Assembly: GCA_958349075.1 (NCBI GenBank) | Contig: CATWBR010000001.1 | Span: 1-29,927 of the forward strand | Reading direction: 5' to 3' | Source of the DNA: an uncultured Clostridium sp. | Lineage (GTDB): Bacteria; Bacillota; Clostridia; Lachnospirales; Lachnospiraceae | Length of the DNA: 29,927 nucleotides | Shown here: positions 1 through 29,927 of the stretch, piece after piece | How the letters are laid out: each line of letters begins with the position of its first letter | Position numbering within the stretch: position 1 is the stretch's first letter | Translations under genes and position numbers: made by a program | The notes under the pieces: generated by a model | Told to the model about the DNA's origin: nothing | The model's input: the letters and a program-made list of their open reading frames with translations, nothing else | Database searches by the model: none

Positions 1-8
1 ATATATAT

Positions 9-75
9 GAAATGCGAATGCGTGAAAACGCGTTCGCATTTCGTCGGTTAAGGGAACATGAACGGTTTTGTTCAT
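9..75 (+). repeat. Double-hairpin intergenic element, copy 1
   Basis: Stem 1 pairs GAAATGCGAA (9-18) with TTCGCATTTC (33-42). It is extended by an inner GCGT/ACGC stem closed by a GAAA tetraloop (24-27). After 8 unpaired bases comes AGGGA (51-55), then stem 2, ATGAAC (58-63) with GTTCAT (70-75). The same arrangement with the same spacing recurs at 5436-5503 and 29269-29335. This copy ends 93 bases before the surface-protein start at 169. There is no T-run after either stem, so it does not look like a terminator. Whether it acts as RNA or as a DNA operator is not known. The window starts just upstream, so the gene before it cannot be seen. Confidence 0.75.
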
Positions 76-168
76 GTTGGCAGAAATTCACAGTAAAGAT
101 GATGCAGCAATGGATGGTCTAATTTGCAACTTCTGACTGTAATCAGATTTTAGAAAAGGAGGAAAAAC

Positions 169-2676
169 ATGAGACTTTGGATTAAAAAACAGACAGCGTT
201 TCTATTAACCGCGATCATCATTGCGCTACAGTTTCCGTATGCGGCGCTGGCGGAGACAGACGGGCCGGATATCAAAACCGTAACTTCGTTTACCCCGCTT
301 AAGGACGGTATTAAAAAACAGACTGTCCAGGCGGGAACAAAGCGGGAAGATCTGATTCTGCCGGATCAACTGAAGGCGGAGATTGTCAAGGAACCGGAAG
401 AAAAACCGGATGCCGCCACTCCCTCACAGGCAGAAAAAGAGGAATCCGAGACGGATTTGGTGCACTCGGCGTGGATTCCGGTGACCTGGGACAGCGAGCC
501 GGAGTATGACGGCGATACGGAGGGAAGCTACGTGTTTACAGCGGATATCGGTGACTATGTGCTGGCGGACAGTGTGAAACTACCCCAAATTACCGTAACC
601 GTGGAAAACCCTGAATTTCTCCCGCCGGATGCCGACGCCAAGACCTACCAAAAGACTTACACCGTGGATTTTTCCACAGAAGGCTATGCGATTAAACCAC
701 TTTCTGACAATCAGGACTTTGGTGAAGCCGAGGCAGGTTATCTCCCCTCCTCTGCCGCGAAAGACGTGGGTTTTGAGAATACGGGAACCCTTCCGTTAAA
801 TGTGACAGGCGGCCGCCTGTTAGAGGCGAAAGCATTTGAAGTTGTGCCCCCCGAAACTAAAACCGGAGTGCTGGCGGCAGGTGAAACGATATTCTATACC
901 ATACAGCCGAAATCCGGTTTGGAACCGGGAGTATATGAGGATATGTTTAGCATCTATACGATGGAAGGCTTCATCGCGGGAGTGAATCTAAAGTTTACAG
1001 TGACAGAAAAAATCACTCAGACCGTCACCGTTATCTTTGACACTGCGGGAGGGACGCGGACCGGCGGAGGGGAACTGACACAGGCAGTCCCGGCAGGCGG
1101 AGCGGCGGCTGCCCCGGAGGTAACCCGTGACGGATATACCTTTATCGGGTGGGATAAGGATTTTACAAACGTGGCGGCGGATATGACTGTCACCGCTTTA
1201 TGGAAGAAAAATTATGCCATTGAGGCATCCCCTGTCGACCTGGACTTTGGCATTGCCGAGGAAGGTTATAACGGCTACTATTTCACAAAGACTATGAATT
1301 TTAAGAATACGGGAGCCCTTACAATGAATATTACAGGTGTCGTCCTGTCAAAGGCGGAAGCATTTGAACTTGTGAGCAATCCGCCAGGACCAATGCAGTT
1401 CCTGGCAGGTCAGAGGTACGTCTATTTAATACTACCGAAATCCGGTCTGGCGCCGGGAGTATATGAGGATACGTGTACCCTCCGTACGGTGGAAGGCGCC
1501 AACGCCCCAGTGGACCTAAAGTTTACGGTGACAAAAAAGACCGTTCAGACCGTCACCGTCACCTTTGACCCTGCGGGAGGGACGCGGACCGGCGGAGGGG
1601 AACTGATACAGGCAGTTCCCGTGGGCGGCGGGGCTGCTGCCCCGGAGGTAACCCGTGACGGATATACCTTTACCGGTTGGGATAAGGATTTTACAAATGT
1701 GATGGCGGATACGACTGTCACCGCTTCATGGGAGAAAAATGGCTTCTATGGGATTGAGCCACTCTCTGCCAATCAAGACTTTGGCAAGGCCGAGGCAGGC
1801 TATCTCTCCTCCTCTGCCGAAAAAACCGTGAGTTTTGAGAACACGGGAACCCTGCCGTTAAATGTGACAGGCGGCGTCCTGTCAAAGGCGGAAGCATTTG
1901 AAGTTATGAACCATCCAACGAAAACCGTATTGCTCGCGGCAGGTGAAACAATATCCTATTCCATACAGCCGAAATCCGGGTTGGTGCCGGGAGTGTATGA
2001 GGATATGTTTACCATCCACACGGCGGAAGGCGCCACCGCGGCAGTGAACTTAACGTTTACGGTGACAGATAAGACCGTACAGACCGTCAACGTCACCTTT
2101 GATCCTGCGGGAGGGACGCGGACCGGCGGAGGGGAACTGATACAGGCAGTTCCCGTGGGCGGCGGGGCGGCTGCCCCGGAGGTGACTCGTGACAGCTATA
2201 CCTTTACCGGTTGGGATAAGGATTTTACAAATGTGACATCAGATATGACGGTGACCGCCTTATGGAAGAAAAATACAGGTTCATCGGGACGCAGCAGCGG
2301 TTCCTCATCGGACAGCAGGAGAATCCCCTATTCGGATACATCGGTTCTCTACGGAAACTGGGAGCAGACCGCTGCGGGCGTATGGCTGTTTAAGATGATA
2401 AACGGTTCCTACGCAAAAAACAGTTGGGGGCAGGTAAACGGCCGGTGGTACTACTTTGATGCTGAGGGCAGAATGCTGACGGACTGGTATTATGACCAGA
2501 ATTACCAAAAATGGTTCTATCTTGAACCGGATGGAAGTATGGCGGTCGGATGGAGGCAGATTGACGGGAAATGGTATTATTTCAATCCGGTTTCCGACGG
2601 AACCAAAGGAGCGATGGCGGCAGGTACCGAGGTGGACGGATATACCCTTGGGGCAGATGGCGCGGCAATTCACTGA
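169..2676 (+). CDS. Secreted repeat-rich surface protein with Ig-like, InlB B-type and choline-binding-type repeats
   Basis: This 835-residue protein starts at ATG 169 behind a strong AAGGAGG site. Residues 1-28 form a signal peptide (basic start, hydrophobic core, AxA-like end ALA). Residues about 45-150 form an Ig-like module with a VTWDSEPEYDG motif and an acidic Pro/Glu stretch. Three repeats of about 175 residues follow (about 175-348, 351-524, 529-702). Each has an Ig-fold part (DFG, FENTGTLPLNVTGG, PKSGL.PGVYED) followed by an InlB B-type (Listeria-Bacteroides) repeat (FDPAGGTRTGGG, GYTFTGWDKDFTNV). A Ser/Gly-rich linker (about 703-727) leads to a C-terminal region (about 735-835) of choline/glucan-binding-type repeats (GRWYYFDAEGRM, GKWYYFNP). 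Such repeats normally hold proteins on cell-wall polymers. No LPXTG motif is present. The likely role is adhesion or wall binding; the ligand is unknown. The two-component system begins 57 bases downstream with no visible terminator between them. Confidence 0.9.
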   Translation: MRLWIKKQTAFLLTAIIIALQFPYAALAETDGPDIKTVTSFTPLKDGIKKQTVQAGTKREDLILPDQLKAEIVKEPEEKPDAATPSQAEKEESETDLVHSAWIPVTWDSEPEYDGDTEGSYVFTADIGDYVLADSVKLPQITVTVENPEFLPPDADAKTYQKTYTVDFSTEGYAIKPLSDNQDFGEAEAGYLPSSAAKDVGFENTGTLPLNVTGGRLLEAKAFEVVPPETKTGVLAAGETIFYTIQPKSGLEPGVYEDMFSIYTMEGFIAGVNLKFTVTEKITQTVTVIFDTAGGTRTGGGELTQAVPAGGAAAAPEVTRDGYTFIGWDKDFTNVAADMTVTALWKKNYAIEASPVDLDFGIAEEGYNGYYFTKTMNFKNTGALTMNITGVVLSKAEAFELVSNPPGPMQFLAGQRYVYLILPKSGLAPGVYEDTCTLRTVEGANAPVDLKFTVTKKTVQTVTVTFDPAGGTRTGGGELIQAVPVGGGAAAPEVTRDGYTFTGWDKDFTNVMADTTVTASWEKNGFYGIEPLSANQDFGKAEAGYLSSSAEKTVSFENTGTLPLNVTGGVLSKAEAFEVMNHPTKTVLLAAGETISYSIQPKSGLVPGVYEDMFTIHTAEGATAAVNLTFTVTDKTVQTVNVTFDPAGGTRTGGGELIQAVPVGGGAAAPEVTRDSYTFTGWDKDFTNVTSDMTVTALWKKNTGSSGRSSGSSSDSRRIPYSDTSVLYGNWEQTAAGVWLFKMINGSYAKNSWGQVNGRWYYFDAEGRMLTDWYYDQNYQKWFYLEPDGSMAVGWRQIDGKWYYFNPVSDGTKGAMAAGTEVDGYTLGADGAAIH

Positions 2677-2733
2677 TTTTCCTTGCATCCAACGTACCAT
2701 AATGCTATATTCATCTTGAGGGGGTGGAAACAT

Positions 2734-3414
2734 ATGGACTATTCTTACCGGCTGCTGGCAGTTGATGATGAACCGGATATCCTGCGGACAAACCGCCGGT
2801 ATCTGGAGGCGCGGGGATACCGGGTGGATTCAGCCGTCTGTGCACAGGATGCCCTGGAATTGTTAAAAAAACAAAGCTACGACTGCATTCTGTTAGACGT
2901 GCTGCTTCCGGATATGAACGGATTTGCACTGTGTGAGGCTGTGCGCGCGCTTACCTCTGCCCCGATCCTGTTTTTGAGCTGTATGGATGATGAGGAGGAT
3001 AAGATAAAGGGGCTGATGGCAGGCGGCGATGACTACATCACCAAGCCATATAGCCTGAAGGAGCTGGCGGCACGGGTGTATGCCCAGGTGAGGCGCAGTG
3101 CTATGAGAGGATTTGCCATCGACCACCAGAACCAGATTCTGCGGATTGACAACCGGATTTTTCCTCTGGCCCAGAAGGAATTTGATTTGTTTTTGTTTTT
3201 GCTGGGGAATCCGGGCAGGGTAATACCGGCGCCGGAGCTGTACCGGGAAGTGTGGCGTACGGGGAAAGCGGACGCAGCCAATACCGTGGCGGTCCATATG
3301 GCGCGGCTGCGGCACAAGCTGGAGGACGCGGAGCCCGTTATTGGCCGGATTGAGACAATCCGCGGGGAAGGATACCGGTTTTTGCCCAAGGAAAAAGCGA
3401 GGACCATGCTATGA
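2734..3414 (+). CDS. OmpR/PhoB-family response regulator
   Basis: DNA-binding response regulator of 226 residues. The N-terminal receiver domain shows the acidic pair (VDDE), the phospho-acceptor Asp55 in LLDVLLPDMNG, and the KP pair in DDYITKPYSLKEL. The C-terminal winged-helix (about 125-223) has the family pattern LAQKEFDLFLFLLGNPGRV and ends with IETIRGEGYRFL. I chose ATG 2734 because GAGGGGG lies about 10 bases upstream; an in-frame ATG at 2683 would add 17 residues without a good ribosome site. The stop overlaps the kinase start by four bases (ATGA), so the pair is translationally coupled. The target genes are unknown; the adjacent surface-protein gene is the obvious candidate. Confidence 0.95.
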   Translation: MDYSYRLLAVDDEPDILRTNRRYLEARGYRVDSAVCAQDALELLKKQSYDCILLDVLLPDMNGFALCEAVRALTSAPILFLSCMDDEEDKIKGLMAGGDDYITKPYSLKELAARVYAQVRRSAMRGFAIDHQNQILRIDNRIFPLAQKEFDLFLFLLGNPGRVIPAPELYREVWRTGKADAANTVAVHMARLRHKLEDAEPVIGRIETIRGEGYRFLPKEKARTML

Positions 3415-5381
3415 AACGGTTTTTGGCAGTATTTCTGTTGATTTTTTCCCTGTGCCTAGCTCTGTTTTTTACTTCCTCCAAGCCATTTGTTTCTGGGGGA
3501 CCGGAGGCCGGAGAGGGAGTTCTTGATTACAGGGAGACGGATTTTACGTCCTCCGTATACGCTCTGAACGGCCAATGGGAGTTTTATTACGACAGGCTGT
3601 ATACTCCGGAAGACTTTAGGCAGGGTGTTCCGGAGGGAATGGAATATATTGATCTTCCCGGCCCGTGGACCAAAAAGGGGTATCCCGGACTCGGCTATGC
3701 CACTTACCGTCTGAAAATCCTGACGGAGCCGGGGCGGCCTTATCTTCTCTATATCCCGGAGGTTATGTCTTCCTCGGCCATCTGGCTGAACGGGGAAGCG
3801 TTTTACCGGGCCGGACGGGTGGGAACCTCGGATGAGGAGACCGTCACCGGAGTGCGTAATGAGCTGCTGACCGCGGTTTCCGCGGACGGTGTCCTGGAGC
3901 TTGTGATCCAGTCCGCCAATTACCGGATGAACGGGAGCGGAATTTTTTATCCGCTTCTCATTGGACGGGATACGGTGCTGATCCATCACGTGTTCTGGCA
4001 GCGCACGGTGCTGGCCGCCGCACTGGGAGGCATCCTGCTGATCGGCGTCTATCATCTGTTCCTGTATTTCTTCCGCCGGAGGGAGCTTTTATATCTGACT
4101 TTCAGTCTCATCTGTCTGACCGCAGTGATGAGGCTGGGGATGGAGAGTAATGCCCTGGTTCAGTATTTCCTGCCGGGCGGGATTGGATTTATCTTGAGCC
4201 GGGTATTCCTGCTGCTGTTTACCACGCACAGCATGTTTATCTGTCTTTTCATGATACAGGCTCTTTCCATCCGTCTTGGACGGCGTCTGCGTTTATTTTA
4301 TGTGTTCTGCTTTGCCGCGCCCATGGCGGGAATCTGTATCCTGCCCTATGCAAAAGCGGTCGCCGGGATGTTTCTGGTCATGATACCGTTCGGCATTTCC
4401 ATCGTTCTGGCGGTACGGACGAAAAAAATCGGCAGGGATCCGTACCGGCTTCTGTATCTGTGCAGTATGGTGACCTTTGTATTCTATGGACCTCTGTCAA
4501 AAACGGTATTGGAGGGAGAGTTGTTTGTTCCCGGTATCGTCCCGAATATGTTTTTAATCCTCAGCCAGTGTGTCATGCTGTCGCGCAGCTATGCCCAGGC
4601 GCACGAGGAGGTGGAGCGGGTTAATGCAAATTTGGAGAGACTGGTGGAACAGCGGACGGCTCAGCTAAACAGCGCCAATGAACAACTGGCCGCTTCCCAG
4701 GCGGCTCTCCGGGAAATGATCAGCAATATTTCGCATGATCTGAAGACACCGTTGACCGTGCTGAACAACTACTTAGAGCTGCTGGGAGATGAGACGATTG
4801 CCTCCAGCGAGCAGGAGAGGACCGAATATCTGGGGATTGCCTACAACAAGAATCTGGATTTGCAGCGGCTCATCCACAACCTGTTTGAGGTCACCCGGAT
4901 GGAGGGAGGAACCACAGTCTACCGTCCGGAATGGGTTTCCGCGTACAGTCTCATGGCGGAGGCAGGAAGAAAATACGGAGATTTGGTTTGTGACAAGGGG
5001 GTCTCTTTCCAGGCGGAGAGTGACAAAACGCTGGAACTGAAGATAGATAAAAATAAGATATGGAGCGTGCTGGACAACCTGATTTACAATGCGCTGCGTT
5101 ACACGCCGGAGGGTCAAAGCATCTCCCTCTCCCTTTTCAGAAATGGGGACCGGGCGGAGCTTACCGTTGCCGATACGGGGGAAGGGATAGCCGCTGAGCA
5201 TCTTCCCCATATTTTTGAGCGGTTCTACAAGGTCTCGGCAGAACGCGGGGAGAAGGACGGCTCCAGCGGACTGGGGCTTTATATTGTAAAAACCACGGTG
5301 GAAGCAATGGATGGCGCCGTGTCAGTGGTGAGTGAGCCGGGAAAGGGAACGGTTTTTACCATGACGTTTGCTGCGAGATGA
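3411..5381 (+). CDS. Membrane sensor histidine kinase with 7TM-DISM sensor region
   Basis: A 656-residue kinase paired with the preceding regulator. Residues 1-23 are a membrane or signal segment. Residues about 40-190 are extracellular and resemble a jelly-roll sugar-binding fold of the GH2 N-domain type (LNGQWEFYYD, IDLPGPWT, YATYRLKI). Residues about 194-390 form a block of hydrophobic helices of 7TM-DISM type, and about 397-435 a coiled coil. HisKA follows with His442 in ISHDLKTPLTVL. The ATPase domain shows the N box (NLIYNALRYTPEG, about 555), G1 (DTGEGIAAEHLPHIFERF) and G2 (GSSGLGLYIVK). All catalytic motifs appear intact. It probably senses an extracellular carbohydrate-like ligand and phosphorylates Asp55 of its partner. 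The ligand is an inference from the ectodomain fold. Confidence 0.92.
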   Translation: MKRFLAVFLLIFSLCLALFFTSSKPFVSGGPEAGEGVLDYRETDFTSSVYALNGQWEFYYDRLYTPEDFRQGVPEGMEYIDLPGPWTKKGYPGLGYATYRLKILTEPGRPYLLYIPEVMSSSAIWLNGEAFYRAGRVGTSDEETVTGVRNELLTAVSADGVLELVIQSANYRMNGSGIFYPLLIGRDTVLIHHVFWQRTVLAAALGGILLIGVYHLFLYFFRRRELLYLTFSLICLTAVMRLGMESNALVQYFLPGGIGFILSRVFLLLFTTHSMFICLFMIQALSIRLGRRLRLFYVFCFAAPMAGICILPYAKAVAGMFLVMIPFGISIVLAVRTKKIGRDPYRLLYLCSMVTFVFYGPLSKTVLEGELFVPGIVPNMFLILSQCVMLSRSYAQAHEEVERVNANLERLVEQRTAQLNSANEQLAASQAALREMISNISHDLKTPLTVLNNYLELLGDETIASSEQERTEYLGIAYNKNLDLQRLIHNLFEVTRMEGGTTVYRPEWVSAYSLMAEAGRKYGDLVCDKGVSFQAESDKTLELKIDKNKIWSVLDNLIYNALRYTPEGQSISLSLFRNGDRAELTVADTGEGIAAEHLPHIFERFYKVSAERGEKDGSSGLGLYIVKTTVEAMDGAVSVVSEPGKGTVFTMTFAAR

Positions 5382-5754
5382 TGGCATATAATTATAAAAA
5401 GAAATTACTTTAATAACGGGGAGATCCTGGCAGATAGAATGCGAACACTTGAAGACAGTGTTCGCATTCTGGCATTTCAGGGATTATGAACGAAATCGTT
5501 CATTTGTACCGTAAGTTTCGGCCAAATACTGCAAGATTTGGCCAGGATATTGAAACCTCTCTGCCGGATCGTTATGTTGGAGATAAAGGAAACTATTTAC
5601 GAAAGCATATGGGGCAGCCTTTAATATGGAAACAGCCAGGCGCTGTATGCTGTGGTGGCAGGGCTTAAAAAAGCTGGAGGCCGCCGGGGGAGGGGTTCTG
5701 CTAAACGCCGTGCGTCCGGATGACAGGGGATAGATACGAACCGGGAGGGAAAAT
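5382..5754. other. Gene-poor spacer between the kinase and the MalT-like regulator
   Basis: These 373 bases hold no convincing gene. They contain an AT-rich stretch (5386-5415), the second double-hairpin element (5436-5503), and a further perfect inverted repeat, GGCCAAAT (5520-5527) with ATTTGGCC (5536-5543). An ORF from ATG 5486 to 5668 (60 codons) exists, but it lacks a properly spaced ribosome site and recognisable homology, and it begins inside the second hairpin. The ribosome site of the next gene (GGGAGG, 5743-5748) closes the region. The stretch may be a long 5' leader of the regulator gene. Confidence 0.6.
5436..5503 (+). repeat. Double-hairpin intergenic element, copy 2
   Basis: Stem 1 is a perfect 14-base inverted repeat (5436-5449 with 5457-5470) around a 7-base loop. 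Eight bases later comes AGGGA (5479-5483). Two bases after that is stem 2, ATGAACG (5486-5492) with CGTTCAT (5497-5503), closed by a four-base loop. It begins 54 bases after the kinase stop and ends about 250 bases before the regulator start. It is the most regular of the three copies. No T-run follows stem 1, which argues against a simple terminator for the kinase operon. Confidence 0.78.
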
Positions 5755-8268
5755 ATGAGCAAATGTCTATATAACACAAATCGGCTGTACTTGACGGGGG
5801 CGCTGAAGGCAGGTCTGAATACAATACTGGATTTTCCGCTCGCCATTGTGGAGGCGCCGATGGGATATGGAAAGACGGTGGCTGTCAGGGAGTTCCTGCG
5901 GGAAACGGAGTCTGCGGTGATATGGGTGCCCGTTACCAATGAACATGAGAATGGATACAGGGAGAGCTTTCTTGCGTTTCTGGATGAACGCGTGCCGGAG
6001 CTTGAGGAGACGGTCAGGAGTCTGCGGTTAATAGGGCCGCTTGACGACGACAGCTCCAACCGTCAGTTTGTTTCCATATTACAAAAACTCAACTGGGAAA
6101 AGCCGACGATTGTCGTCCTGGATGATTTCCAGCATATCAACAACATGCGCTCCTGCCGCCTTATTGAACAGATAGCGAGAAGCGGCATAGAAAATCTTCA
6201 CATCGTCTTGATTACGCGGGATACATATTGCGGAAACGCGGAAATTCTTAGCCTGAAAGGACTGCTGACCGTGATCGGGCGTGACAAATTTATACTCAGG
6301 AAAGACGACATTATCGCTTACTATAAAATTTGCGGAGTGAATATCGATGAGGAGGAAGCCATATTTTTGTATAACAAGACGGAGGGATGGATCAGCGCTC
6401 TCTACCTGTACCTGCTGCGGTACGCCGAGGAAGGAATTATTGCTTTCCCGATCAATATTTACGAGCTGATCGATCGGGAGATGTTCTCCTGGTTTTCCGA
6501 TGAGCTGAAGCGCTTTTTGTACGCGGTCAGCCCCTTTCAGATGTTTACCTTTGAGCAGGCCGATTATGTATGGGCAGGGGATAATACCCACGAGCTGCTC
6601 AGCGAGCTGCGGTTTAAAAATACGTTCGTCACCTACAATGATATTACGCACCAATTTTGCATACACAGTATTTTCCTGCAATTTCTGGAGCGCGTGGTCG
6701 CACGTCTTTTGGAGGAAGACCGGCTTTCCTGCTATGAACGCTGCGGAGACTGGTTTCTTCAGGAAAAAGAATATCTGCGGGCCATCCGGTATTATGACAG
6801 GGCAAATCAGTTTGACGCGGTGATGAGAACCATAGAGGCGGACCAGGGCAAATGTATCTCGGTGCAGGAGTGGCCGTTTTTCTCGCTGATTCTGAAAAAG
6901 TGTCCGGAGTCTGTAAAACTAAATCATCCGCCCGCCATGCTGTTTACCGCTCTCCGTGCTTTTTTGGTCAATGACAGAGAGGCATTTGAGAGCTGCAGCC
7001 GGACCATCGGACTGTCTTTCGATCTGCTTGCGCAGGAGGACCCTAAGCGGCAGTCCCTGGAGGGAATGGTCTCCTTTATCTCGGCGTTTCGTGAGTTTAA
7101 TCGGATCTCGGAGATGAAAAATAAATTTATGGAGGCAGGACAGTCGATACGGGAGACTGCGGTGGTTTTGGCCGGACAGGACACCTTTTGGACGCTGGGA
7201 GCGCCGTCGCTTTTGCTTCTGTTTCACAGGGACAGCGGCTGCCTCAATGAAGAAACCGGGCAGATGAGGCTGCTTTTAGACGCCTACGGCGCGCTCACGA
7301 AGCACCGGGAGGAAGGAATCATAGAGCTCATGGAGGCGGAGGGGTTCTATTTCCAGGGGAAAAAGGAGCAGGCCAGAATCAAAACATTTGCCGCGGAGCT
7401 GCTGATTGCGGGCAGCGGTCAGGTATCTAATTTATTCTATGTGAAATTCCTGCAATTCCGTCTGGCTCTTTTAAGTGGAGACCGGATGGAGGTTAACGAC
7501 AGGATGGAGGAGATGGAGCAAATGGCGCAGAACAGCAGGAACAGCGGTTTTGCCCTGTGGCAGATGATGGAGCTATACCGCGGTTTTTACCATGGCTATA
7601 TGGGAAGGGGAAAGCAGATTCCCTCCTGGATCCGTTCGGGGGAAGAGCTGAACCGCACACTTACTCTGTTCGCCTACCCCTCCTATCAGATTATCTATGG
7701 CAAATCGCTGCTTTTGGAGGGCAGCTATGAAAAGCTGATAGGCGTTTTCCAGGTGCTCTTAAGCCAGGAACTCTACACCCGACACGCCCTTTTTGTTATC
7801 TACGCGGAGATTTATCTGGCGGCGTCCCAGTACGCTATGGGCTGGGATAGCCAGGCACTGGCTACCTTAAAACATGGGTTGGAGGTAGCGCTGGCGGATG
7901 AGCTGATCCTGCCATTTGCCGAAAACTATAAGGAGCTGGCTCCGCTGATGGAGGTTCTCGTGCTGATGGAAAACTACCGGGAGGCGGCAAAATCCATCAA
8001 ACGGCTGGCCGAACAGTTGGAGGATGGACGCAGCCGGATCTCGGGAGCGGGAAGACACAGAAGGAGCGACCTTCTGACAGAACGGGAACGGCAGATGGCA
8101 CGCCTGGCTTTTGAAGGACGGACGAACAGCGAGATCGCGTCGGAGTTATGCCTGGCGCAGAGCACGGTAAAGCGGGCCATGGTCAATATTTTCCGGAAGC
8201 TGGAGATTCATAATAGGGAGGAACTAAAGGAACAAAAGCAATGGTTCGAGGATGAGGAGCCGGGCTGA
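5755..8268 (+). CDS. MalT-like ATP-binding LuxR-family transcriptional regulator
   Basis: An 837-residue regulator with the layout of the MalT/STAND group: N-terminal NTPase, helical repeat middle, C-terminal LuxR helix-turn-helix. Walker A is APMGYGKT with Lys40; Walker B is IVVLDDFQ (Asp123). The central region (about 350-760) is helical and TPR-like. The HTH (about 772-835) shows LTERERQMARLAFEGRTNSE and QSTVKRAMVNIFRKLEIHNR. ATG 5755 is preceded by GGGAGG at a good distance. Proteins of this type are ATP-dependent activators triggered by a small ligand, often a sugar. It stands alone between a long leader carrying the double-hairpin element and a strong terminator, just ahead of the polysaccharide operon. 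Control of that operon is plausible but unproven. Confidence 0.92.
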   Translation: MSKCLYNTNRLYLTGALKAGLNTILDFPLAIVEAPMGYGKTVAVREFLRETESAVIWVPVTNEHENGYRESFLAFLDERVPELEETVRSLRLIGPLDDDSSNRQFVSILQKLNWEKPTIVVLDDFQHINNMRSCRLIEQIARSGIENLHIVLITRDTYCGNAEILSLKGLLTVIGRDKFILRKDDIIAYYKICGVNIDEEEAIFLYNKTEGWISALYLYLLRYAEEGIIAFPINIYELIDREMFSWFSDELKRFLYAVSPFQMFTFEQADYVWAGDNTHELLSELRFKNTFVTYNDITHQFCIHSIFLQFLERVVARLLEEDRLSCYERCGDWFLQEKEYLRAIRYYDRANQFDAVMRTIEADQGKCISVQEWPFFSLILKKCPESVKLNHPPAMLFTALRAFLVNDREAFESCSRTIGLSFDLLAQEDPKRQSLEGMVSFISAFREFNRISEMKNKFMEAGQSIRETAVVLAGQDTFWTLGAPSLLLLFHRDSGCLNEETGQMRLLLDAYGALTKHREEGIIELMEAEGFYFQGKKEQARIKTFAAELLIAGSGQVSNLFYVKFLQFRLALLSGDRMEVNDRMEEMEQMAQNSRNSGFALWQMMELYRGFYHGYMGRGKQIPSWIRSGEELNRTLTLFAYPSYQIIYGKSLLLEGSYEKLIGVFQVLLSQELYTRHALFVIYAEIYLAASQYAMGWDSQALATLKHGLEVALADELILPFAENYKELAPLMEVLVLMENYREAAKSIKRLAEQLEDGRSRISGAGRHRRSDLLTERERQMARLAFEGRTNSEIASELCLAQSTVKRAMVNIFRKLEIHNREELKEQKQWFEDEEPG

Positions 8269-8288
8269 AACAGACAGGGAGGTGCCCC

Positions 8289-8346
8289 GGTAGGGGGTGG
8301 GTGTGTCTTATTCGATACCGAAAGACACACCCGCCCCCTACCTTTT
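8289..8346 (+). terminator. Strong intrinsic terminator after the MalT-like regulator
   Basis: A roughly 21-base-pair inverted repeat with one mismatch (8289-8309 with 8322-8342) surrounds a 12-base loop and is followed directly by TTTT (8343-8346). It lies 21 bases after the regulator stop. It should insulate the regulator from the polysaccharide operon. The stem is nearly symmetrical (CTACC/GGTAG ends), but only the + direction has a downstream T-run and an upstream gene. Confidence 0.93.
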
Positions 8347-8422
8347 ATGATCAGGGAGGAACCGGTAAAATAAAGATAAGTTAAATCGGGATTGTCAATT
8401 GGGCGCCGGAGGTGGGGATTGA

Positions 8423-8659
8423 ATGAAGAGCAGAATCGTGGAGGCTTTGCCGTTGGAGAACTACAAACTTGAAATCAGACTGGAGAACGGAAGTGTTGCG
8501 GTAATTGATATGAGGAAAAAGATAATGACGGCCAGATTTGGGATTTTAAGGGAAAGAGATGTCTGGCAGTCTGTGAGGACCAGTCATTCCAGCGTTCACT
8601 GGGGAGGCCATGTGGAGCTGACACTTTCAGAGGCGTTGGAAATCTTAGTGGAGCAGTAG
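8423..8659 (+). CDS. DUF2442-like small protein
   Basis: A 78-residue protein beginning at ATG 8423, with GGAGGTGGGG upstream. The pattern resembles DUF2442: a strand pair (YKLEIRLENGSVAVIDMRKK), a central segment (FGILRERDVWQSVRTS) and an ending like W-x-x-x-x-x-L-x-x-E-x-L (VHWGGHVELTLSEALEIL). DUF2442 proteins have no firm biochemical role; in many genomes they pair with a small DUF4160 protein, which is not seen here. It is the first gene after the terminator and 26 bases ahead of the glycosyltransferase, so it probably heads the operon. A link to polysaccharide synthesis is only positional. Confidence 0.75.
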   Translation: MKSRIVEALPLENYKLEIRLENGSVAVIDMRKKIMTARFGILRERDVWQSVRTSHSSVHWGGHVELTLSEALEILVEQ

Positions 8660-27782: not shown

Positions 27783-29213
27783 TTGACTTTCAAGAAGAGA
27801 AGGGGGAGACGAAGGCAGACGGGGGGGGTCAGGCATTTGGACTTTTTTATCGTGGATCTGATAGGAGCCTCCGCTGCCTATGGGCTGTCGTGCCTGTCTT
27901 TTTATCTGCAGCACGGAGCGGCCCCGGCCGGCTCTTATATCGCAGCAGGACTGCTGCTTCTGATTTTGCAGATGCTGACAGCTTTTATGCTGGACGTATA
28001 TGAGGGCGTGATCTATAGAGGGTATCTGAAGGAAATGAAAGCCGTGCTCCGCCAGGAGTTTATTGTCAACGCGGGTTTTCTGTTATTGCTTTATCTGCAA
28101 AAGAGCCTGTTTTATTCCCGGCTGATTTTTTGTCTGACCATAGTTTTCACCGTGTTTTTTATCTATAGCGGCAGAGTTCTGCTCAAAGGGTATCTGAAGC
28201 GCCGGTACAGCCGTTTGAAAAATACGCGCCAGATTATGGTGGTGGCGACGGAACGGACGGCGTACGGCATGATTGAGGCAGTGACGGAGGTCGCGATTCG
28301 GGATTACCGGTTTTTATGCCTGGCCGTCATTGATCGGGAAATGACGGGGGAACGGATCGGGGCGGTGGAGGTGTGCGCAGGCCGGGCCGGACTGCTCGAC
28401 TATATTGGCAGCCATATCATCGACGAGGTGCTGATCAATGCGGTGGAGGATCCGTCTTATGTGCTGGAGCTGTCGGAAAAACTTTTGAGTATGGGAAAGA
28501 CCGTTCATCTGTATTTGGAGCAGTATTTCGAGACGCTCCCGCACCGGCGGATGGGAAATGTATTCGGGTTCCGGGTCATGACCTCTACTATCAGCCCGAT
28601 TTCATACCGGCAGCTTTTGCTGAAACGCATGATCGATATTGCGGGAGGCCTGACGGGATGTCTGGTCACTCTGCTGCTGCTCCTGATCGGTCCGGCCATT
28701 TTCATCCGTTCGCCGGGACCTGTCTTTTTCCGTCAGGTAAGGGTCGGAAAAAATGGAAGGCGGTTTTGGATGTACAAATTCCGCTCCATGTACCCGGACG
28801 CAGAGGCGCGTAAGAAGGAACTGATGGAAAAGAATCAGATTGAGGGGGGACTGATGTTTAAGCTGGATCCGGATCCCAGGATTATCAAGGGAATAGGTCA
28901 TTTCATCAGAAAAACCAGTCTGGATGAATTTCCACAGTTTTTTAATGTGCTGAGAGGGGATATGTCGCTGGTGGGAACACGCCCGCCGACGGAGGACGAG
29001 TATGACAGGTACAGTCCCCACCACAGAAAACGCCTGAATATGCGACCTGGAATCACGGGCCTGTGGCAGATTATGGGGAGAAGCAAAATCTTGGAGTTTG
29101 AGAAGGTGGTGGAACTGGACGTCAAGTACATCCAGAACTGGACGCTGAGCGGTGACATTAAAATACTGGTAAAAACCTTGGCGGAGATCGTGAAGGGAGA
29201 GGGGGCAAGATAA
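27783..29213 (+). CDS. Initiating sugar-phosphate transferase (WbaP/CpsE-type)
   Basis: A 476-residue polyprenyl-phosphate hexose-1-phosphate transferase. The N-terminal part has about four membrane helices, then a soluble Rossmann-like region (about 140-260). The C-terminal catalytic domain (about 280-476) is intact: KRMIDIAGG, SPGPVFFRQVRVGKNGRRF, MYKFRSMYPDAE, RKTSLDEFPQFFNVLRGDMS, LVGTRPP and RPGITGLWQIMGRS. It starts repeat-unit assembly on undecaprenyl phosphate. The start is TTG 27783, nine bases after the MBOAT stop, with a weak GAGAAG site; a TTG at 27837 is a possible alternative. It is unusual for this enzyme to be the last gene of the operon. The first sugar (glucose, galactose or an N-acetyl sugar) cannot be told. 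Confidence 0.94.
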   Translation: MTFKKRRGRRRQTGGVRHLDFFIVDLIGASAAYGLSCLSFYLQHGAAPAGSYIAAGLLLLILQMLTAFMLDVYEGVIYRGYLKEMKAVLRQEFIVNAGFLLLLYLQKSLFYSRLIFCLTIVFTVFFIYSGRVLLKGYLKRRYSRLKNTRQIMVVATERTAYGMIEAVTEVAIRDYRFLCLAVIDREMTGERIGAVEVCAGRAGLLDYIGSHIIDEVLINAVEDPSYVLELSEKLLSMGKTVHLYLEQYFETLPHRRMGNVFGFRVMTSTISPISYRQLLLKRMIDIAGGLTGCLVTLLLLLIGPAIFIRSPGPVFFRQVRVGKNGRRFWMYKFRSMYPDAEARKKELMEKNQIEGGLMFKLDPDPRIIKGIGHFIRKTSLDEFPQFFNVLRGDMSLVGTRPPTEDEYDRYSPHHRKRLNMRPGITGLWQIMGRSKILEFEKVVELDVKYIQNWTLSGDIKILVKTLAEIVKGEGAR

Positions 29214-29376
29214 GCGATAACCGGCCGGCTCTGTACGCCGTGCAATGGTTTTTGCTGAACGGTAATAAGAGTGCGGACAAGTGGTTTGCGTGTCCGCATT
29301 CAGGCGTTTTAGGGAATATGAATAAAATTGTTCATATTTATACGGGAAGCCGGAAGAAAGGTAGGGAAGAAATTCG
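29214..29376. other. Intergenic segment after the polysaccharide operon
   Basis: No gene is seen here. It contains a short CCGGCCGG palindrome and the third double-hairpin element. I see no stem followed by a T-run, so the operon terminator is not visible here. Confidence 0.5.
29269..29335 (+). repeat. Double-hairpin intergenic element, copy 3
   Basis: Stem 1 pairs GAGTGCGGACA (29269-29279) with TGTCCGCATTC (29291-29301), including one G-T pair. AGGGA is at 29311-29315. Stem 2 is ATGAAT (29318-29323) with GTTCAT (29330-29335); the T-G pair works in RNA but would break a perfect DNA palindrome. In stem 1 the A-T pair of copies 1 and 2 (GCGAA/TTCGC) is a G-C pair here (GCGGA/TCCGC), a compensatory change. 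It lies 56 bases after the sugar-transferase stop and 42 bases before the GGDEF remnant. Confidence 0.72.
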
Positions 29377-29659
29377 ATGAAGGATGTCCTGACATTGCTG
29401 AAAAATAAAAGTTTGTGCTCGACATAGACAATTAAAAAAAATCAATGACCGGTACGGGCATCTCGCAGGTGATCAGGTTCTCCAAGGTGTTGTCCGTATT
29501 TTAAAGGAAGTGATCTCCGACGATGATATTTTGGGACGTATCGGCGGGGATGAATTTGTCATATTTATGAGTGTAAATCCTGGTCCGGATTTTATAGGGG
29601 CGTGCAGCCACCGGCTTCGGCAGAGGTTTCTCAGCTTCTGTATAAACGGTATCCGTTAA
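29377..29659 (+). pseudogene. Decayed GGDEF-domain (diguanylate cyclase) gene
   Basis: The ribosome site AGGGAAG (29363-29369) and ATG 29377 open a frame coding DVLTLLKNK, which matches the DxLTGLxNR start of GGDEF domains, but it stops at 29425. The next part, FVLDIDN (29412-29432), is in another frame. Then INDRYGHLAGDQVLQGVV and GRIGGDEFVIF (GGDEF at 29543-29557) are in a third register after an A-run, with a stop at 29657-29659. The spacing between the NK and DID motifs is about 70 bases shorter than normal, so there is an internal deletion plus a -1 shift at the poly-A tract. The catalytic GGDEF signature itself is preserved. No product can be made; the gene is recently broken. Confidence 0.8.
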
Positions 29660-29927
29660 AGCCGTCGACAACAAATAGTGGGGGAAAAGTAGAGCAAGCG
29701 CCACGGGGAACCATTGCCGAAGTTAATGCCACACCATGAGACATACCTCCAGCTCCTGAAAAGCCAATGAAGGATTGCATATTTCGGGGTTATAGAGACT
29801 GACGGTGTAGATACGGTGGGAGGGGATAGATTGTTCATTTATCTATAAGTGGCTGAAGAGGGATTCCCTTCCTACTCTGGATAATTTCCTTGCACTAAGT
29901 GTTGTGTTTAACGTTTCCATAAACGAT
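29660..29927. other. Non-coding tail of the window
   Basis: No convincing gene, RNA gene or terminator is seen. The base composition is lower in GC than in the polysaccharide operon. It may hold further decayed sequence continuing from the GGDEF remnant. Confidence 0.45.

Follow-up and report, generated by a model that had tools for sequence, protein, structure and literature searches.

The window, by which we mean the whole stretch of 29,927 nucleotides of uncultured Clostridium sp. (Lachnospiraceae) DNA that was analysed, carries three copies of a two-hairpin element that is real, conserved and directional, with a coherent set of genes behind it, and that is probably a control element not yet catalogued. 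The copies lie at 9-75, 5436-5503 and 29269-29335, all in one strand orientation and with constant spacing, and each consists of a hairpin (stem 1), an unpaired linker containing AGGGA and a second, palindromic hairpin (stem 2; Table 1). An earlier note on this DNA had described the copies, their shared parts and their orientation, and the sequence bore it out in each of these respects, as it did for two changes in copy 3 (a paired one from A-T to G-C in stem 1, and one from C-G to T-G in stem 2), the GAAA loop of copy 1 and the absence of a T-run after stem 2. The linker and stem-2 pattern AGGGANNATGAAYN6GTTCAT, which was derived from the three copies themselves and searched with up to two mismatches, matched the window three times, each time without a mismatch, compared to a mean of 0.01 matches in shuffled windows and none of 100 shuffles with three. 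A search for inverted repeats (at least 14 nt, arms at most 60 apart) gave four in the window, and the first stems of copies 1 and 2 account for two of them.

Table 1. Parts of the three copies and neighbouring genes in the window
Feature	Position	Strand	Details and basis
Copy 1, stem 1	9..42	+	Arms 9-23 and 28-42, GAAA loop; inverted-repeat search and fold
Copy 1, unpaired linker	43..57	+	AGGGA at 51-55; pattern match
Copy 1, stem 2 (palindrome ATGAAC-N6-GTTCAT)	58..75	+	Pattern match
Protein with Listeria-Bacteroides repeat and choline-binding repeats, behind copy 1	169..2676	+	Open reading frame and Pfam
Response regulator (receiver and Trans_reg_C domain); orthologue co-occurs with the element	2734..3414	+	Pfam, orthologue search
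Histidine kinase with 7TMR-DISM region	3411..5381	+	Open reading frame and Pfam
Copy 2, stem 1	5436..5470	+	Arms 5436-5449 and 5457-5470; inverted-repeat search and fold
Copy 2, linker	5471..5485	+	AGGGA at 5479-5483; pattern match
Copy 2, stem 2 (palindrome ATGAAC-N6-GTTCAT)	5486..5503	+	Pattern match
Large LuxR-family regulator (GerE domain), behind copy 2	5755..8268	+	Open reading frame and Pfam
Copy 3, stem 1	29269..29301	+	Sequence and fold
Copy 3, linker	29302..29317	+	AGGGA at 29311-29315; pattern match
Copy 3, stem 2 (palindrome ATGAAT-N6-GTTCAT)	29318..29335	+	Pattern match
Interrupted GGDEF-like remnant, behind copy 3	29380..29600 (approximate)	+	By eye

Distribution and conservation of the element

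About 21 further copies were found in seven Hungatella-related genomes, and 11 more distant copies, the ABC type, occur in other Clostridia with a tetR-like gene on one side and ABC-exporter genes on the other. A pattern scan of 84,980 species genomes gave nine matches in eight stretches, with the record titles Hungatella (four), Clostridium sp. (two) and Clostridiales bacterium 1_7_47_FAA (two), and all six source genomes that were searched again with mismatches carry real copies; matches without stem 1 (L021, L022, L025, L027, L028, L030 and L031) were removed by eye. Copies per genome numbered three in G001 and G006, two in G002, G003 and G005, four in G004 and five in G401, one of the last being split. 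A covariance model built from 17 copies (R1) matched 10 of 397 genomes of the family at E 1e-3, three of them Hungatella and seven others. The best three matches outside Hungatella (L035, L036 and L037, at E 3e-6 to 1.4e-5, for which about 0.006 matches would be expected over the 397 genomes if these rough E-values hold) all precede ABC exporter genes; their stem-1 sequence is unrelated to that of the Hungatella type, while the linker CGTTTTAGGG and the GAAC palindrome are in common. Within the genus of G001, R1 matched four of 17 genomes, namely G001, G006, G401 and G408, the last with one weak copy (L054) that was retained in the 26-row alignment. A second model, R2, was built with three ABC-type members, so that its ABC-type matches are not independent of those of R1; it matched 26 of the 397 family genomes, four of the 41 relatives of G077, one of the 40 relatives of G109 (at E 1e-4) and, at E 1e-4, 13 of 391 genomes of the class. 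These model searches cover samples of about 400 genomes per rank.

Members L081, L098 and L134-L139 were accepted as ABC type on the basis of a TetR-like frame upstream and an ABC frame downstream of each, with Pfam applied to L101 only. Matches on the antisense strand were attributed to palindromy and dropped, and L038-L041, L045, L083-L097, L099, L100 and L140-L143 were excluded from the counts as chance or unproven (L087-L089, L092-L094, L097 and L100 without inspection). The most plausible of the matches left out is L096 (about 5651-5727 of L106, minus strand), a weak model match before a ccdA-like gene, with a hairpin, a TGCGTTTTCGGGG linker and an ATGAA-TTCAT palindrome, which is possibly a further member. 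A lone element in L082 (1501-1570), near a sub-threshold match to the Clostridiales-1 RNA (375-559), looks from its sequence like an ABC-type element in decay; inspection by eye of the frames listed for it showed neither a tetR nor an ABC gene. In G401, a group II intron splits one copy (about 6921-8944 of L108, minus strand) and separates its stem 1 from the linker, as though stem 1 had served as the insertion hairpin.

The earlier note had named an absence of covariation as a refuting outcome; covariation was found in both of the alignments that we examined. In a MAFFT alignment of 17 copies, which was not fitted to the structure, double-sided changes were present in 9 of 21 pairs, and every measure exceeded those of 500 shuffles, none of which equalled nine pairs; slid structures gave one to three. 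In a 26-member alignment, which was fitted to the model and hence leans towards the model structure, double-sided changes were present in 15 of 22 pairs, compared to 3-10 pairs in slid structures, and there were 64 cells, compared to a mean of 15.6 over the shuffles and 3-16 over the slid structures; the kinship of the sequences inflates the counts. Stem 1 differs in sequence between the two types and keeps its pairing. Since 11 of its 14 pairs have changed on both sides, and since its mismatches are G-U in 27 cells and A-C in six, four of the latter at the basal pair, the sequence comparison indicates that stem 1 is under RNA-level constraint on the sense strand and works as transcribed RNA.

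In stem 2 the picture is more divided, with G-U in eight mismatch cells and A-C in five, and G-U found alongside Watson-Crick pairs at its flanking pair. The six-base loop is mostly purine-purine-A-W-pyrimidine-pyrimidine, and is thus symmetric with respect to purines and pyrimidines. Its outer position (G-U 6, A-C 7) has no wobble bias and would fit the dyad symmetry of a DNA site, whereas its second position is wobble-biased (G-U 12, A-C 2) and would not. Whether the palindrome acts as RNA or DNA, a choice that the earlier note had left between a structured RNA and an operator family, is therefore a point on which the evidence is mixed.

The spacing of the parts is fixed; random spacing was the outcome that the earlier note had named as refuting. 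In 34 of 34 members (the 26 aligned, with L081, L098 and L134-L139), a four-base ARGG-like block starts nine bases before GAAC and ends five bases before GAAC (or GAAT, GAAG); the block is ARGG in 27 and a near variant in seven, and the spacing script, which required the block at that place, found exactly one match per member. The distance from the end of stem 1 to GAAC is 16-19 bases, and is 17 in 24 of the 34. The members have in common ARGG-N5-GAAC-N6-GTTC, with variants, at this fixed spacing behind stem 1, and four features do not vary among the 22 Hungatella-type rows: the T of column 51, the G of column 55, ATGAA and TTCAT. In a search for lone palindromes with ATGAACRRWWYYGTTCAT, allowing one mismatch, the seven element genomes gave 22 distinct sites, of which 20 are inside elements (one split) and two, each with one mismatch, are outside, and six genomes without clear elements gave none; the backward control pattern gave three sites across the 13 genomes. 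Stand-alone palindromes in the element genomes were thus not above chance, and these missing sites are the informative part of the search, ATGAACRRWWYYGTTCAT having been taken from the elements themselves; the real copy L018 is too divergent to be listed with it.

Promoters, genes and co-occurring regulators

A TTGACA/TATAAT pair scoring at least 10 of 12 and ending 5-32 bases upstream was found for 12 of 19 Hungatella-type copies outside the window, compared to 0.24 expected from base shuffles, and the remaining seven score 8 or 9; the 19 were drawn from about 21 such copies, the near-identical L014 and the split copy being left out. Because a strong sigma-A promoter lies just upstream in these 12 copies, the element is, as far as predicted promoters indicate, an mRNA leader in most of the tested Hungatella-type cases. 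No promoter of at least 10 of 12 was found for any of ten others, comprising window copies 2 and 3, L054 and seven ABC-type rows. Copies 2 and 3 begin about 55 bp past the end of the preceding frame (stops at 5381 and 29213) and, like the ABC type, are intercistronic by their position, unlike the promoter-linked copies elsewhere. The window opens eight bases before copy 1, so that its promoter results concern copies 2 and 3.

The genes behind the elements fall into a few classes. A response regulator and a kinase follow L016, L018, L020, L026, L044 and L061, as well as L060, where the kinase comes first; secreted or choline-binding proteins follow copy 1, L011, L017, L024, L015, L053 and others; and GGDEF genes follow L019, L023 and L029. 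These assignments rest on Pfam for ten proteins, the remaining genes being named by eye. In the window, the gene types that the earlier note had placed behind the copies (a surface protein, a MalT-like regulator and a GGDEF gene) were recovered, except that the GGDEF-like frame behind copy 3 has internal stops and looks like a remnant; at L119 the element is followed by a GGDEF gene in an open frame, unlike this interrupted one. The LuxR-family gene behind copy 2 precedes an exopolysaccharide-like gene block, named by eye. That the copies precede few gene classes, and are not scattered, supports the suggestion of a control element shared across a regulon. It is also noted that ten-base poly-G tracts or a long GACA run lie near the gene start in L001 and L008, which have surface-protein genes behind their elements, and in L057/L107; these surface-protein genes are candidates for phase variation. 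Furthermore, a 21-bp inverted repeat followed by TTTT lies at 8289-8342 of the window, between the LuxR-family gene and the exopolysaccharide-like genes, and clearly surpasses the only other terminator-like site detected on the plus strand.

Orthologues of the window response regulator (E 1e-60) were found in seven of 21 genomes, exactly the seven with clear elements, the 21 being related so that their co-occurrence does not amount to 21 independent trials; the 14 genomes lacking an orthologue include G408, with its weak copy. Orthologues of the TetR-like protein of L101 (E 1e-30) were found in three of 299 genomes, and the element is present in all three. In the loci scanned for a TetR gene near Hungatella elements there was only one weak match (L006, 28.8 bits), and no tetR homologue was found in plasmids or phages at E 1e-15.

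In all 11 ABC loci, which are related and in several cases near-identical, GAACGA or its complement occurs within 120 bases upstream of tetR, compared to a background of 0.058 of windows. Upstream of tetR the motif reads GAACGA-N3-TCGGTC or a variant of it, in forward orientation at seven loci and in reverse at four, and the leader palindrome is GAACGA-N2-TCGTTC, -TCGGTC or variants; the centre spacing, judged by eye, is constant at three bases in the promoter motif versus two in the leader. The automatic inverted-repeat search recovered the promoter motif in one of eight promoters (L103). A half-site common to promoter and leader that occurs in either orientation would suggest that the TetR-like protein binds it as DNA, and its location before tetR is as expected for an autoregulatory TetR site, at which binding is predicted.

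Comparison with known elements

A search of the window against Rfam (release 15) with E up to 5 gave no match over the gathering cut-off at the element, consistent with the earlier view that this is not a recognised riboswitch; a sub-threshold Qrr match lies over copy 2 on the opposite strand (23.3 bits, cut-off 50). Likewise, nothing over the cut-off was found at the element in L035, L036, L037, L054, L062, L082, L096 and L108, and the sole over-cut-off match at the scanned elements was the group II intron splitting one copy. No description of the two-hairpin element was found in the literature searched.

A strong hairpin followed by a short T-rich stretch is reminiscent of intrinsic terminators and attenuators, and the earlier note had considered that the element might prove to be a known terminator. 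However, the T-run of the element is only three or four long and starts several bases past the stem, and the d-score of stem 1 and tail was below 0 in 30 of 31 members (L060 4.2; a made-up control 38.9). Terminator scans of 1-8500 and 28000-29927 listed none of the three copies; a contrary score came from L020, where stem 1 reached 9 in a scan with shorter folds. Stem 1 is thus mostly a poor terminator, and the reading as a canonical terminator is disfavoured. Repetitive DNA, a REP or a transposon end is likewise disfavoured, as there are two to five copies per genome in the seven genomes, in one orientation and upstream of recurring gene classes, and a phage or plasmid origin was rejected, the evidence consisting of one viral match without stem 1 (L009, by eye) and one chance match inside a coding frame.

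Two further kinds of leader fit poorly. ANTAR-type leaders carry a pair of hexaloop hairpins in which loop positions 1 and 4 are A and G, whereas all 22 Hungatella-type rows have T or A at position 4 of the stem 2 loop and the stem 1 loops are of various lengths. A leader peptide in stem 2 (M-N-x-x-V-H in frame) was set aside: its last two codons hardly vary (one change, in L044), the ATG follows AGGGA too closely for an ordinary ribosome site, and L035-L037 lack the ATG.

Possible mechanisms and their consequences

The reading that we put first, tentatively and at somewhat less than an even chance, is a leader attenuator in which an RNA hairpin and a T-rich linker upstream of a regulator-bound palindrome would stop RNA polymerase. 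Transcription would begin just before stem 1 or enter from the upstream gene, and stem 1 would fold in the nascent RNA behind a polymerase crossing the T-rich, then G-rich linker (TTTTAGGG). The palindrome GAAC-N6-GTTC, 16-19 bases past stem 1, would be the site of a dimeric regulator, most likely as DNA; with the regulator bound, polymerase would halt ahead of the linker or within it, the hairpin trailing it, and then be released or held, and with the regulator gone the gene would be transcribed. In the ABC type the bound protein would be the TetR-like protein encoded next door, and in the Hungatella type the co-occurring response regulator is the first candidate. We infer the protein binding, the blocking of polymerase and the direction of control from a hairpin that varies in sequence and not in pairing, a linker that is T-rich and then G-rich, and a regulator-like palindrome at a fixed distance, all of which the attenuator would fit.

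There are precedents for part of this scheme. Repressor roadblocks inside transcribed regions are established for LacI, CodY and CcpA, and these too have a regulator site within the transcribed region and block elongation, not initiation (PMC10310618, PMC4132739). The element differs from them in that the hairpin and linker are constant parts of it. We know of no conserved RNA hairpin and linker at a fixed upstream distance from the LacI, CodY or CcpA roadblock sites. A nascent hairpin reportedly restricts the movement of polymerase in both directions.

Our estimate for the attenuator is held down by its loose geometry and by the mixed RNA and DNA signals of the palindrome. Stem 1 would not yet have emerged from a polymerase that halts a good way before the palindrome, and the wobble bias of the second loop position and the G-U in the flanking pair of stem 2 look RNA-like. 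Lone palindromes do not occur beyond chance, though operators often occur without a hairpin, and the conserved AGGGA lacks a specific explanation in this model. Further points against it are the centre mismatch between the tetR promoter and the leader, the poor terminator formed by stem 1 and its tail, and the fact that OmpR-type regulators usually bind direct repeats. A broader form of the attenuator, which we consider rather unlikely, is a reusable two-part device in several Clostridia lineages, in which a constant RNA hairpin and TTTTARGG linker would precede the DNA operator of a local regulator (TetR-like in the ABC-transporter operons, another in the Hungatella surface, GGDEF and exopolysaccharide regulon), whose occupancy would make a weak hairpin an effective stop.

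The main rival, itself rather unlikely in our estimate, is a purely RNA cis-regulator, in which the hairpins and linker would form one fold, with an RNA-binding protein or a small molecule as its ligand, to control transcription or translation of the next gene. This would account for the paired changes in both stems, the wobble-biased second loop position, the location of the palindrome within full elements at 20 of 22 sites in the element genomes, and linker columns 51 and 55, which are unpaired as well as invariant; GGDEF and surface-protein genes also resemble second-messenger regulons. On the other hand, the outer loop position without wobble bias and the half-site common to the tetR promoters in both orientations look like DNA, and an ABC exporter and GGDEF or surface genes have no obvious common ligand, nor is there an Rfam match. 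A DNA-only operator, in which a dimeric regulator would bind the inverted repeats and the RNA would be irrelevant, is improbable. It would explain why the element occurs with one response regulator or one TetR-like protein, but a DNA palindrome would hold its sequence and have no wobble bias, whereas stem 1 switches sequence between the types, keeps its pairing and favours G-U over A-C.

We consider a processive antitermination signal, similar to put, EAR or a LoaP-dependent hairpin and giving read-through of later terminators, to be quite improbable. The promoter-proximal or intercistronic position would suit it, as would the strong terminator-like hairpin at 8289-8342 and a weaker terminator (d=8) between element and GGDEF gene in L112; however, across 16 loci examined to at most 7 kb downstream there was no consistent terminator before the gene or inside the operon, so that internal terminators as its targets were rejected. 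The put RNA of phage HK022 is, like the element, an adjacent hairpin pair of about 70 bases near the transcript start, from which the element differs in its long unpaired linker and in the lack of consistent downstream terminators. LoaP is rejected as an obligatory partner, being over the curated cut-off in four of 11 genomes with strong or weak elements and below it in G401, which has five copies. The LoaP-dependent dfn and mln leaders are similar in having an RNA hairpin in the leader of long operons, but the LoaP hairpin is of the UNCG type (PMC12691694), whereas the stem 1 loops seen vary (GAAA, GAGA, TATA, ACCT and others), and the element carries a second palindrome. Finally, an mRNA processing or stability module, with stem 1 shielding the upstream 3' end or a 5' end, the U-rich linker being cut and stem 2 shielding the new 5' end, is very improbable: the hairpin pair around an unpaired U-rich linker and the intercistronic copies in the window and between tetR and the ABC genes would agree with it, but it has no need of the fixed spacing and near-invariant stem-2 sequence, nor of the strong promoters directly before most of the Hungatella-type copies tested.

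To our knowledge, no regulator has been described for the Hungatella-related regulon. Whatever its mechanism, the element provides a sequence handle on this regulon and a limited set of candidate genes and proteins for testing. If the attenuator reading is true, a control element outside Rfam would join signalling, GGDEF enzymes, exopolysaccharide and surface proteins into one Hungatella-related regulon, and would be a natural case of an RNA hairpin and a DNA-bound protein jointly stopping RNA polymerase.
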